The position numbers and the translations under genes are program-made. Below the pieces are notes generated by a model that worked only from the letters and a program-made list of their open reading frames with translations, made no database searches and was not told where the DNA came from. Shown here in pieces: positions 35,572 through 39,391 of a stretch of 64,000 bases of DNA (positions are counted from its first letter, which is position 1; the number at the start of each line of letters is the position of its first letter). This DNA is from Clostridia bacterium (GTDB lineage Bacteria; Bacillota; Clostridia; Oscillospirales; CAG-272), in assembly GCA_017456895.1 (NCBI GenBank), contig JAFTIN010000003.1:1-64000 (forward strand), written 5' to 3'.

Positions 35572-35589
35572 CTATATGTAAAAAATCTA

Positions 35590-35910
35590 AAGACTGTGAC
35601 GAAGACAGTAGCCGTACGGAAAAGGTGCAGAGAGTCGGGGTAGGTGTGAGCCCGATACGGAGTACGTACAGACGGTTATCCGAGACGGATCTCATCCCGG
35701 AGCACCGTGGCAGACGATGAAGGGGCGCTCCCTCTCCTGCCGTGAATATCACTTCCGAGTCGCGCTTGTGAAAGCAGGAGCACCCTTACCGCTTCCCTGA
35801 TAAGTAATGAGCGTCGGAGCCCTACCGTAATATCGGGCGCATATTGATGGATATGTGAATGGATGGTATAAGTGTTTTTTCCGTTTCCATATTGGGGGCG
35901 GTTTTTTTAT
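35590..35910 (+). ncRNA. T-box leader, isoleucine-specific
   Basis: A T-box senses uncharged tRNA and prevents termination. Stem I closes by GTGAC-GAAG (35597-35605) with CTTC-CGA-GTCGC (35753-35764). The loop-E AGTA lies at 35608, the distal AGAGA-type GCAGAGAG at 35628-35635, and the GGTG partner loop at 35644. The specifier context GAATATCAC places ATC (Ile) at 35749-35751, matching the ileS gene downstream. TGGT (35864-35867), able to pair with the tRNA ACCA end, lies just before the terminator. The antiterminator departs from the usual TGGNACCGCG consensus. Stem I contains about 70 extra bases forming two hairpins. Identification rests on motifs and the downstream gene. Confidence 0.85.
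35881..35908 (+). terminator. T-box-controlled terminator
   Basis: CCGTTTCC pairs with GGGGGCGG (GU-rich eight-base stem) and is followed by seven T. Its 5' arm overlaps the expected antiterminator, the normal T-box switch. Confidence 0.75.
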
Positions 35911-36183
35911 TTGTCGGAACGACAAATAAAAAATGAAGCGCACCTTAGCGGTGCATGAAAAATGAAGCAGCCTGCGGCTATGAAGCGTGGCTTCGCCACA
36001 CGGAGAAGTTAGAGTGCGCTTCGCTTCATGTTCCGCTTGCGGAATGCTTCATACGAACGAAGTGAGTGCTTCATGAAAGTCGACAGACTTTTGCTTCATA
36101 TCGCGTAAGCGATGCTTCATTCAATGAAGTTGCTGCTTCATATTCGCATGGCAAATGCTATGTATCGCTGCACGAATGCTTTT
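35909..36183. repeat. Array of variable mini-hairpins separated by the heptamer ATGAAGC/GCTTCAT
   Basis: Between the T-box terminator and ileS the heptamer ATGAAGC occurs at 35933, 35962 and 35980, then in reverse orientation as GCTTCAT at 36023, 36046, 36068, 36093, 36114 and 36135. Between heptamers sit short hairpins with different sequences but preserved pairing: 35940-35954 (GCACC/GGTGC), 35970-35978 (GCC/GGC), 35987-35999 (GTGGC/GCCAC), 36031-36044 (TTCCGC/GCGGAA), 36076-36091 (AAAGTC/GACTTT), 36100-36113 (ATCGC/GCGAT) and 36142-36156. An 8-bp hairpin (35909-35927) precedes the array. In the right half units recur every 21-25 bp. No ORF spans it. I know no named element of this form. 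Confidence 0.8.
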
Positions 36184-36232
36184 TGAAATTAATTGTTAAA
36201 ATATACACGGGCTATGCCCAAAAGGAGAAAAA

Positions 36233-39200
36233 ATGGATATCTATGAGAAGGTCTCAACGAACTTAAACTTTGTTGAGAGAGAAAAAGCTACCAGAAAATT
36301 CTGGGAAGAAAACAAAGTCTTCGAGAAGAGTATCGCCGACAGGGAGGGTCACGACAATTACACCTTCTTTGACGGCCCGCCTACCGCCAACGGTAAGCCC
36401 CATATCGGCCACGTGCTCACTCGAGTAATCAAGGATATGGTACCCCGCTACCAGACCATGAAGGGCAAGCGCGTCCTCCGTAAGGCAGGCTGGGATACAC
36501 ACGGTCTGCCCGTTGAGCTCGAGGTTGAGAAAAAGCTCGGTATCGACGGCAAGGATCAGATCGAGGCTTACGGCCTCGAGCCCTTCATCGGACACTGCAA
36601 GGAGTCCGTATGGAAGTACAAGGAAATGTGGGAGGACTTCTCCGGAACTGTCGGCTTTTGGGCTGATATGGAGCACCCCTACGTAACCTACACTAACGAC
36701 TTTATCGAGTCCGAGTGGTGGGCTCTAAAGCAGATCTGGGATAAGGGCCTTCTTTACAAGGGCTTCAAGATAGTTCCCTACTGCCCCCGTTGCGGCACTC
36801 CCCTCTCCAGCCACGAGGTCGCGCAGGGCTATAAGACCGTAAAGGAGAAGTCCGCTATCGCGCGCTTCAAGTGCAGGGATGAGGACGCCTACTACCTCGC
36901 GTGGACCACAACCCCCTGGACTCTGCCCTCCAACGTTGCGCTCTGTGTTAACCCCAAGGACACATACTGCAAGGTATCCTGCATTGACGGCAACGTCTAC
37001 TATATGGCAGAGGCTCTGCTCAACAAGGTGCTCTCTCCTCTTGCTAAGGAGGAGGGCGAGGTAGCCTACACCGTGCTTGAAAGAATGACCGGTAAGGACC
37101 TCGAAAGACGCGAGTACGTGCCCCTCTTCGACTTCACCGCCGACGAGGTAACCAGACAGAAGGCAAAGGCGCACTACATCGTATGCGACGACTACGTAAC
37201 CATGTCCGACGGTACCGGTATCGTACACATTGCTCCCGCATTCGGCGAGGATGACTCCAAGGTCGGCAGAAAGTACGACCTGCCCTTCGTACAGTTCGTT
37301 GACGGCAAGGGTGAGCTCACGTCGGGCACCCCCTATGCAGGCATCTTCGTCAAAAAGGCTGACCCTATCATCCTTGAGGACCTCGCGAAGATGGGTAAGC
37401 TCTTCTCCGCTCCCAAGTTTGAGCACGACTATCCTCACTGCTGGAGATGTAACACGCCCCTCATCTACTACGCTCGCGACACTTGGTTTATCAAAATGAC
37501 CGCCGTACGCGATAATCTCATAAAGAACAACAACACAGTCAACTGGATCCCCGAGAATATCGGTAAGGGACGCTTTGGCGACTGGCTCGAGAACGTGCAG
37601 GACTGGGGTCTCTCCCGTAACAGATACTGGGGCACGCCCCTCAACATCTGGGAGTGCTCCTGCGGTCACAGGCATTCCATCGGCTCTATCGCCGAGCTTA
37701 AGAGCATGTCAAAGAACTGCCCCGAGAACATTGAGCTTCACCGCCCCTTCATCGACGCGGTAACCATCACCTGTCCCGAGTGCGGCGGCGAGATGAAGCG
37801 TGTCAGCGAGGTTATCGACTGCTGGTTCGACTCGGGCTCTATGCCCTTTGCTCAGTGGCACTACCCCTTCGAGAACAAGGAGGTCTTCCACTCTCAGTTC
37901 CCCGCAGACTTCATCAGTGAGGGCGTTGACCAGACACGCGGCTGGTTCTACTCTCTCATGGCTATATCCACCCTCATCTTTGACTGCGCGCCCTACAAGA
38001 ACGTTCTCGTTCTCGGTCACGTCCTCGATAAAGAGGGACAGAAGATGTCCAAGTCCAAGGGCAACGCGGTAGATCCCTTCGAGGCTCTCGAGACCTACGG
38101 CGCAGACGCCATCCGCTGGTACTTCTACTCCAACTCCGCTCCCTGGCTTCCCAACCGTTTCTTCGGTGAGGCCGTAGTCGAGGGACAGAGAAAGTTTATG
38201 GGTACGCTCTGGAACACCTACGCGTTCTACGCTCTGTACGCCAACATCGACGGCTTTGATCCTACCAAGTATACACTCAACAAGGATACCCTCTCCGTAA
38301 TGGATAAGTGGATCCTCTCCAAGCTCAACTCGGCAGTAAAGTCGGTTGACAGCATGCTCGCTTCCTATAAGATCACCGAGGCTACGAGAGTCCTTGAGGA
38401 CTTCGTCGACCAGCTCTCCAACTGGTACGTGCGCCGCAGCCGTGAGAGATTCTGGGTCAAGGACATGCCCGAGGATAAGGTCAACGCATACCTCACCCTC
38501 TACAACTGTCTTGTAACCATCGCTAAGGTGTCCGCTCCCATGATCCCCTTCATGACCGAGGATATATACAGAAACCTCGTCGGAAGTGTGGATAAGTCGG
38601 CACCCGTGTCAATTCATCTGTGCTCCTTCCCCGAAGCAGACGAGTCTATGATCGACAAGTCTCTTGAGGAAAATATGGAGGAGGTTATGGATATCGTCGT
38701 GCTCGGCAGAGCCTGCAGAAACGCGGCGGCTATCAAGAACCGTCAGCCCATCGGCAAGATGTACGTCAAGACCGATAAGGTGCCCGACGGCAGCTTCGTA
38801 CCGGTTATCGCAGAGGAGCTCAACCTCAAGGAAGTTGAGTTCACCGACAACGTACGCTCCTTCACCACCTACACCTTCAAGCCCCAGCTCCGTACCGTAG
38901 GACCTAAGTACGGTAAGTTCCTCGGCGGCATCAGAAATACCCTTGCTACCCTCGACGGCAACGACGCTATGGATGAGCTTGAGGCTAAGGGCTCGATCAC
39001 CTTTGAGGTTGGAGGCTCCGAGATCGTTCTCACCAAGGAGGATCTGCTCATCGAGATGACCAAGAAGGAGGGCTTCGAGTCGCTCCAGGATCACGGTGTG
39101 ACCGTAGTTATCGACAAGAACCTCACCCCCGAGCTTATCGAGGAGGGTAACGTCCGCGAGATCATCTCCAAGATCCAGACCATGCGTAAGGATTCCGGCT

Positions 39201-39391
39201 TTGAGGTTATGGATAACATCAAGATCTCCTTCACCGGCAACGCGACCGTTGAGGCTATTGCAGGCAGAAACGCAGAGGAGATCAAGTCCGAGACACTCGG
39301 TGTCGAGCTCACCGTAGGCAAAACTCTCACCCACTCCAAGGAATGGAACATCAACGGCGAGAACGTAACTATCTCGGTCGAGAAGGTCTAA
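36233..39391 (+). CDS. ileS: Isoleucyl-tRNA synthetase
   Basis: This 1052-residue class I synthetase charges tRNA-Ile and edits mischarged valine. The HIGH motif lies in GPPTANGKPHIGHVL near 49 and KMSKS in GQKMSKSKGNAVDPF near 602. The editing domain (about 190-400) contains AWTTTPWTLPSN and GTGIVHIAPAFGEDD. The anticodon-binding domain follows, and then a long C-terminal part like that of the mupirocin-resistant-type (eukaryote-like) IleRS of many Clostridia. Its size, about 1050 rather than 930, and the YPHCWRCNTPLIYYARDTWF block fit that type. AGGAG lies six nt before the ATG. Expression is controlled by the T-box about 320 nt upstream, through the hairpin array. Confidence 0.97.
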   Translation: MDIYEKVSTNLNFVEREKATRKFWEENKVFEKSIADREGHDNYTFFDGPPTANGKPHIGHVLTRVIKDMVPRYQTMKGKRVLRKAGWDTHGLPVELEVEKKLGIDGKDQIEAYGLEPFIGHCKESVWKYKEMWEDFSGTVGFWADMEHPYVTYTNDFIESEWWALKQIWDKGLLYKGFKIVPYCPRCGTPLSSHEVAQGYKTVKEKSAIARFKCRDEDAYYLAWTTTPWTLPSNVALCVNPKDTYCKVSCIDGNVYYMAEALLNKVLSPLAKEEGEVAYTVLERMTGKDLERREYVPLFDFTADEVTRQKAKAHYIVCDDYVTMSDGTGIVHIAPAFGEDDSKVGRKYDLPFVQFVDGKGELTSGTPYAGIFVKKADPIILEDLAKMGKLFSAPKFEHDYPHCWRCNTPLIYYARDTWFIKMTAVRDNLIKNNNTVNWIPENIGKGRFGDWLENVQDWGLSRNRYWGTPLNIWECSCGHRHSIGSIAELKSMSKNCPENIELHRPFIDAVTITCPECGGEMKRVSEVIDCWFDSGSMPFAQWHYPFENKEVFHSQFPADFISEGVDQTRGWFYSLMAISTLIFDCAPYKNVLVLGHVLDKEGQKMSKSKGNAVDPFEALETYGADAIRWYFYSNSAPWLPNRFFGEAVVEGQRKFMGTLWNTYAFYALYANIDGFDPTKYTLNKDTLSVMDKWILSKLNSAVKSVDSMLASYKITEATRVLEDFVDQLSNWYVRRSRERFWVKDMPEDKVNAYLTLYNCLVTIAKVSAPMIPFMTEDIYRNLVGSVDKSAPVSIHLCSFPEADESMIDKSLEENMEEVMDIVVLGRACRNAAAIKNRQPIGKMYVKTDKVPDGSFVPVIAEELNLKEVEFTDNVRSFTTYTFKPQLRTVGPKYGKFLGGIRNTLATLDGNDAMDELEAKGSITFEVGGSEIVLTKEDLLIEMTKKEGFESLQDHGVTVVIDKNLTPELIEEGNVREIISKIQTMRKDSGFEVMDNIKISFTGNATVEAIAGRNAEEIKSETLGVELTVGKTLTHSKEWNINGENVTISVEKV

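Follow-up and report, generated by a model that had tools for sequence, protein, structure and literature searches.

A hairpin array between the T-box terminator and ileS of a Clostridia bacterium, probably a solo member of a mobile array family linked to 23S rRNA IVP genes

The window (the whole 64-kb stretch of DNA that was analysed) carries an array of small hairpins directly ahead of ileS. This array is probably a solo, non-autonomous member of a family of mobile hairpin arrays linked to 23S rRNA IVP genes, inserted beside a palindrome that would copy its target. At the sequence level, the comparisons presented here show the family, its common plan, its link to IVP genes, its sites behind gene 3' ends or terminators and, at many copies, a target-matching palindrome. 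The window copy has the inverted word blocks, the core that inverts the left end and the boundary palindrome of this family. No IVP gene lies directly downstream of it, and it was therefore filed as a non-autonomous relative.

Structure of the ileS array

Between positions 35933 and 36141, nine copies of the word GCTTCAT or its complement ATGAAGC alternate with small hairpins of unlike stems (Table 1). ATGAAGC starts at 35933, 35962 and 35980, and GCTTCAT at 36023, 36046, 36068, 36093, 36114 and 36135; the original prediction of nine perfect heptamers, three followed by six inverted, is thus confirmed. The whole window holds 18 copies of the word, nine of them inside the array. The stems found between words are GCACC/GGTGC, AGCC/GGCT, GTGGC/GCCAC, TTCCG/CGGAA, AAAGTC/GACTTT, ATCGC/GCGAT and ACGAAC/GTGAGT, the last with two tandem G.A mismatches, and the unit at 36121-36134 barely pairs. 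Two features had been overlooked earlier. The segment 35903-35933 is a perfect palindrome with 14-nt arms that shares its final base with the start of the first word, and 36014-36022 is an exact inverted copy of 35935-35943.

Table 1. Features of the array region and its surroundings (positions in the window)
Feature	Position	Strand	Remarks
T-box leader and terminator of ileS (host DNA ahead of the insertion)	35587..35892	+	Rfam RF00230, below gathering score; layout shared with same-genus ileS leaders
Boundary palindrome TTTTTTATTTGTCG-GAA-CGACAAATAAAAAA	35903..35933	.	Arm 1 begins in the terminator T-run, arm 2 abuts the first word
Left half: three ATGAAGC words (GCTTCAT on the minus strand), hairpins 35940-35954, 35969-35979, 35987-35999	35933..35999	-	Conserved in relatives
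Core; its 36014-36022 (GTGCGCTTC) inverts left-end 35935-35943	36000..36022	+	Same relation in other word classes
Right half: six GCTTCAT words, hairpins 36030-36045, 36053-36067 (tandem G.A), 36075-36092, 36100-36113; 36121-36134 weak	36023..36141	+	
Last, longer unit (ATTCG...CGAAT, degenerate GCTT at 36178), probable insertion end	36142..36190	+	Exact end inferred
ileS, occupying the IVP-gene place of IVP-bearing copies	36233..39391	+	

A periodicity expected by chance had been named as grounds for rejection, and the shuffle test shows that it exceeds chance. Counted in hexamers, the word-chain score of the array is 9, including one ATGAAG within a unit, and the top score in 1000 dinucleotide shuffles of 35783-36232 was 4. 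The fold energy of the array gave z = -5.3 as DNA and -5.1 as RNA, with 0 of 200 shuffles equally stable. A second chain of five words at 496-596 of the window is AT-rich, lies within reading frames and was judged to be a chance occurrence. The array matched no Rfam family at gathering score; at E values up to 1, just preQ1-II, TUG1_2 and Flavo-1 appeared beside the T-box, all far below their cut-offs. A phage or plasmid origin was rejected, with 0 matches in the phage collection and 0 in the plasmid collection.

Insertion into the ileS leader

A T-box had been placed ahead of the array. RF00230 matches there with an E value of 7.9e-7, which agrees with this assignment, at a score of 38.1 bits, which lies under the curated gathering cut-off of 93. 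Three or more words were found in none of the 29 ileS leaders from the same genus, and the array is not part of the conserved T-box leader; in most of these leaders only a short distance separates the last T-run from the start codon (the layout view by eye has a gap around L250 and L251, and the word-chain test spans all 29 loci). Among a further 80 ileS loci from named records, some of them with short upstream sequence, no three-word cluster was found. The leader resembles those of its two closest species (G212 and G162) up to 35911, and again from 36200 in G162 and from 36221 in G212. Judged from these alignments, the window array is an insertion behind the putative T-box terminator.

It had been proposed that the array could affect the mRNA stability, antitermination or translation of ileS. 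A general role in ileS control is unsupported, because 0 of the 29 same-genus leaders carry the array and its other copies adjoin unrelated genes. In this single genome, the array may influence ileS expression.

As seen by eye, the slot after the T-box varies by species: G162, G212 and G219 hold other things there, and the chain test flags none of them. In G212, the closest species found, an insertion of about 650 nt follows the T-box terminator (L237) and has flanking inverted repeats and a reading frame that resembles, by appearance, a DUF559-type endonuclease. The G162 leader (L238) has a different repeat-like insertion, with GCC...GGC ends, directly behind the same T-box T-run. In G219 (L254), a hairpin array with another, GATGATATAC-like word is visible by eye after the terminator, and the chain test is negative.

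Distribution of GCTTCAT arrays

The pattern, for which absence from related genomes had been named as grounds for rejection, is present in them. Within the genome of the window, the array recurs at two more sites, on contig C32 and on contigs C16/C72; the last two share identical sequence around the array, possibly through assembly redundancy. The conserved left part was matched in 15 of 59 relatives, this genome counted. Three words in a row were found in 26 of 146 family genomes (this genome counted) versus 1 of 146 in the backwards control; six of the 26 (G021, G031, G053, G067, G087 and G119) are, by eye, coding or plain tandem repeats, which leaves about 20.

A recognisable core is present in 28 GCTTCAT arrays. 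An IVP gene lies no more than 1 kb away from 4 of them and is lacking near 22, and the other 2 are too close to a contig end. The window copy (L128) is of the solo type, with ileS standing where the IVP gene would stand. The rarity of IVP neighbours in this word class (4 of 28) counts against an IVP-linked reading of the window copy. The arrays of L173 and L177 lie directly upstream of a PF05635 (23S_rRNA_IVP) gene, and L176 has a PF05635 gene nearby. Seven IVP genes are present in this genome, whose assembly is 65% complete; by eye they have other words or no clear array, and none is of the GCTTCAT class. Arrays of the GATTTCATC word occur at L123, L141 and L227. Because the one at L123 adjoins a GCTTCAT array, word classes can lie side by side.

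Association with IVP genes

PF05635 (23S_rRNA_IVP, S23) comprises small helical proteins that form a four-helix bundle; one solved relative was found by sequence, the uncharacterised protein 2rld. Among related gut bacteria, the element is often adjacent to a gene of this kind. IVP genes occur in 52 of 60 genus genomes and in 51 of 147 class genomes. The upstream screen covered 100 of 109 distinct IVP loci, namely those with at least 300 nt upstream, and the loci were chosen from the better-scoring IVP matches. A chain of at least 4 was present upstream of 75 of these 100 genes (25 fail). The corresponding figures are 9 of 370 for control genes, the ileS of this window being one of the nine, and none of 500 for shuffles. 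Chains of at least 5 were found upstream of 51 IVP genes versus 2 control genes. The upstream check of low-scoring IVP lineages revealed no array. Of 29 IVP loci from across the class, 7 have a chain of 4 and 4 reach chain 5 (all with the word GCTAAAT); L421-L423 have an ATATCAC word by eye, below the chain threshold.

The arrays upstream of IVP genes mostly carry words other than GCTTCAT, including ACTTCAC, ATTTCAT, GATTTCATC, AATTCAT, ACATCAT, ATATCAC, TCATAAC and more. Twelve word classes, assigned by eye before the tree, were placed on the IVP protein tree. Over 69 labelled rows, of which L266 is probably mislabelled, they require 13 changes (minimum 11), against a shuffled mean of 50.1 and a lowest value of 44 in 300 shuffles. 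Dropping five rows after the tree had been seen gave 11 changes over 64 rows, a figure that was not used. Taken on tree and word classes, this shows that array and IVP gene travel as a unit. Linkage alone would make word and IVP gene co-segregate, and their co-segregation does not prove recognition.

Common plan and hairpin units

Read toward the downstream gene, the copies share one order: target palindrome, left words with hairpins, a core that inverts the left end, inverted right words with hairpins, and the gene. Promoter-like sequence often lies, by eye, between array and gene. An inverted repeat of at least 8 nt between core and left end was found at 35 of 44 loci versus 29 of 2200 shuffled, a count that is aided by the word itself, which is worth six bases.

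The original prediction also stated that pairing is kept while the sequence changes. Over the conserved part of 16 copies, 95.7% of stem cells are paired (shuffled mean 87.5), 21 cells show two-sided changes, a count reached by none of 500 shuffles (mean 7.4), and both partners have changed in 6 of 15 pairs (3.4 in shuffles). One of the five measures, the count of additional pair types, showed no excess (10 versus 10.1 in shuffles). The claim is thus upheld by the two-sided changes, and the pair-type count does not add to it.

When the loops are read in the GCTTCAT direction, 42 of 71 triloops are GNA and 3 are the mirror form TNC, and 13 of 27 tetraloops are GNRA and none is the mirror form TYNC; these counts come from 140 units that are non-independent, a few of them from coding repeats. 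The loop bias therefore indicates that the units are directional and that the two halves are mutual inversions. GNA loops are known to give very stable single-stranded DNA hairpins. A tandem G.A hairpin, found in the window at 36053-36067, is present in 24 of 109 IVP upstream regions on the strand of the gene and in 8 on the opposite strand, versus 8 and 7 of 545 in shuffled sequences.

This strand preference would suit a cis-acting RNA, that is, a structured leader that stabilises the mRNA, ends transcription or controls the next gene and is selected for its fold. The compensatory changes and the strong RNA fold agree with such a function, as do those copies that, by eye, abut the IVP start codon and leave no room for a promoter. 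However, the array is missing from the other ileS leaders, its copies adjoin unrelated genes, and mirror-image halves with reversed loop polarity fit two DNA ends better than one RNA. We consider a cis-acting RNA to be quite an unlikely explanation. The earlier suggestion of a small mobile or slipped-replication repeat is retained in its first part; slippage would leave the ordered parts, the conserved core and the partner gene unexplained.

Target sites and boundary palindromes

Arrays were found behind guaA, rlmD, tRNA genes and the ileS T-box, and not inside 23S rRNA helices. The ends of guaA and rlmD are common island sites. A perfect stem of at least 10 nt lies ahead of 31 of 75 IVP arrays versus 27 of 390 gene 3' flanks, ordinary terminators being included among the latter. 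At L269, a 25-nt palindrome arm reaches into the 3' end of a tRNA gene.

Nine of 30 guaA loci have a TCATAAC-type array. In six of these nine ends, and in 0 of the 21 others, the palindrome pairs with the last codons of the gene itself. The six stems are 15-19 nt long, start 14-16 nt upstream of the stop-codon end and track the synonymous and stop-codon variants of the host. The remaining three array-bearing ends comprise two stems of 10 nt that start 3 nt upstream of this point, and one that is broken. In the 21 loci lacking a TCATAAC-type array no stem starts farther than 9 nt upstream of it. Six of these loci, including the guaA locus of this genome, appear by eye to have another word class right after the stop. 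In this genome (L349, contig C18), guaA is followed by a palindrome and the apparent left end of a GATTTCATC-class array.

For rlmD, 25 of 30 loci were usable, five without the motif having been dropped. The five native-type ends have stems of 3-5 nt. The 20 array-bearing ends have stems of 17-18 nt in four cases and of 6-9 nt in fifteen, and L374 has none. These short palindromes (6-9 nt in 15 of 20, absent in one) count against the main reading. In addition, at least two palindrome arms mismatch the present host (L271 and L377), which was also counted against the main reading. Of the 20 array-bearing ends, 11 have TCC as the serine codon preceding the palindrome, and four of the five native-type ends have AGT; the element may therefore bring a piece of the gene end along.

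That the element seems to supply the gene end would also be expected of an integration cassette, in which the array would serve as attachment site for a site-specific recombinase acting in trans, in the manner of elements that insert at gene 3' ends, and the IVP gene and the genes behind it would be cargo. The choice of gene 3' ends (guaA, rlmD, tRNA) as targets is consistent with this explanation. The rlmD 3' end is moreover a hotspot where the genes after IVP differ between genomes (L326-L328, L330 and L334-L336), L274 has an rlmD end of native appearance downstream of its IVP gene, and L336 contains another remnant of an rlmD end (HVESVVCLTR). Around IVP elements, however, direct repeats are not general: most of 97 loci were at the shuffled level, in a scan whose three top rows are a slicing artefact and several of whose other rows are second arrays. 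The guaA palindrome arm, too, tracks the host's own variants, unlike a fixed attachment site. A cassette of this kind appears unlikely on balance.

Candidate enzymes and proposed mechanism

The arrays could also be REP/BIME-like repeats spread by a RAYT or another Y1 transposase, with IVP as a bystander. The logic of a short tag and a hairpin in inverted pairs is the same, as far as the available part of PMC8266576 describes it. Against this, Y1_Tnp (PF01797) is present, within the genus sample, in 4 of the 13 genomes with arrays and in 6 of the remaining 27 and has no match in this genome (65% complete), and the adjacency of arrays to IVP genes is far over control. RAYT was rejected as the array partner, since the presence of PF01797 does not track the arrays, and we regard this origin as very improbable.

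Retrohoming by a reverse transcriptase, as in diversity-generating retroelements (DGR) or group IIC introns, would be in line with the requirement of DGR targets for a hairpin whose stem may have any sequence and whose loop is GRNA, and with the settling of group IIC introns after terminators (both from the accessible portion of PMC3240598). RVT_1, however, has no match in this genome (65% complete) and is present in 3 of 20 chosen IVP-bearing genus genomes. With a reverse transcriptase undetected in 17 of these 20, it was rejected as the array enzyme, and retrohoming is hardly to be expected. Reverse transcriptase and Y1 transposase are both unfit as a general enzyme, and an integrase that would act in trans is the main rival.

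If the window array is a solo member of an IVP-linked family, the following steps can be envisaged. The IVP protein would identify the hairpins by loop and word, independently of the stem sequence, and the two inverted halves would be the two ends of the element. On insertion, the element would become joined to a folded-back target 3' end, and an inverted duplicate of the target would result. The copy in the window would have been mobilised in trans and deposited between the T-box terminator and ileS, any effect on ileS being a by-product. A more specific proposal is made here only tentatively, as one that may well prove wrong: IVP protein and array could together form a mobile element needing no transposase or reverse transcriptase of its own, which would read hairpin shape and loop and join a snapped-back gene 3' end, each insertion being sealed by an inverted target copy.

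If this proposal is true, it bears on the old question of the origin of the S23-bearing IVS elements with their terminal inverted repeats. Independently of it, IVP proteins outside rRNA gain a constant partner, the hairpin array, and each IVP clade is predicted to bind its own word class. The arrays are a clean case of conserved shape and loop combined with unconstrained stem sequence, and an unusual, testable insertion step is suggested by the target-matching palindromes.

Comparison with known systems

The family of IVP-linked mobile hairpin arrays is apparently undescribed. The literature searched, which excludes most subscription papers and all preprints, held no description of such arrays beside IVP genes. 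In PMC10910872, the part available includes a figure legend on CRISPR adaptation modules that names 23S rRNA IVP, and its section on other interspersed arrays deals with different systems.

The 23S rRNA IVS with an S23p/IVP ORF, known from Coxiella and Leptospira, involves the same Pfam family and is a small selfish element with terminal inverted repeats (available sections of PMC4990558). The same sections treat the Coxiella IVS as a selfish element and report heptamer repeats upstream of its S23p ORF, as well as an S23p homologue that forms a pentamer. They give no known function for S23 proteins and cite a mobile-element theory for the IVS, whether it was ever mobile being an open theory. 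The PF05635 ORF of the IVS is also present in the IVP-bearing array copies, whereas the window copy has ileS in its place. The IVS sits in a 23S rRNA helix, and the array copies do not. In contrast to the IVS, the arrays are multi-hairpin, use class-specific words, have many targets and include solo copies without the gene.

REP/BIME elements with RAYT, as described in the accessible parts of PMC3733652 and PMC8266576, resemble the arrays in having a directional short tag and a hairpin, inverted pairs, extragenic positions and solo copies that are believed to move in trans. Like the array hairpins, REP stems of E. coli carry a conserved tandem mismatch, according to the same parts of this literature (PMC3733652, PMC8266576). 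The arrays differ in that their partner is IVP and not Y1, their stems differ between units and their palindrome matches the target. The REP tag is GTAG or CGTC, whereas the array words are GCTTCAT, ACTTCAC, ATTTCAT and others.

Integron gene cassettes and their attC sites, by their general description, are like the arrays in keeping structure over sequence in a recombination site and in placing varied genes at one hotspot. The arrays differ from them in being multi-hairpin and in having many different target genes. Among DGR components, Avd shares the IVP fold. The DGR target with Avd has in common with the arrays a free stem sequence, a G..A-type loop that matters and a position at gene 3' ends, in the portion of PMC3240598 available; the arrays differ in having many hairpins and in that reverse transcriptase is absent from most carriers tested. 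REP/BIME, IVS, DGR and T-box leader each fail to fit the window array in a defining feature that was tested. By analogy, and on that portion of PMC3240598, the DGR target with its free stem and GRNA loop is the nearest experimental parallel to the array hairpins. As an alternative label, the array family may be a far variant of the S23-bearing selfish elements.
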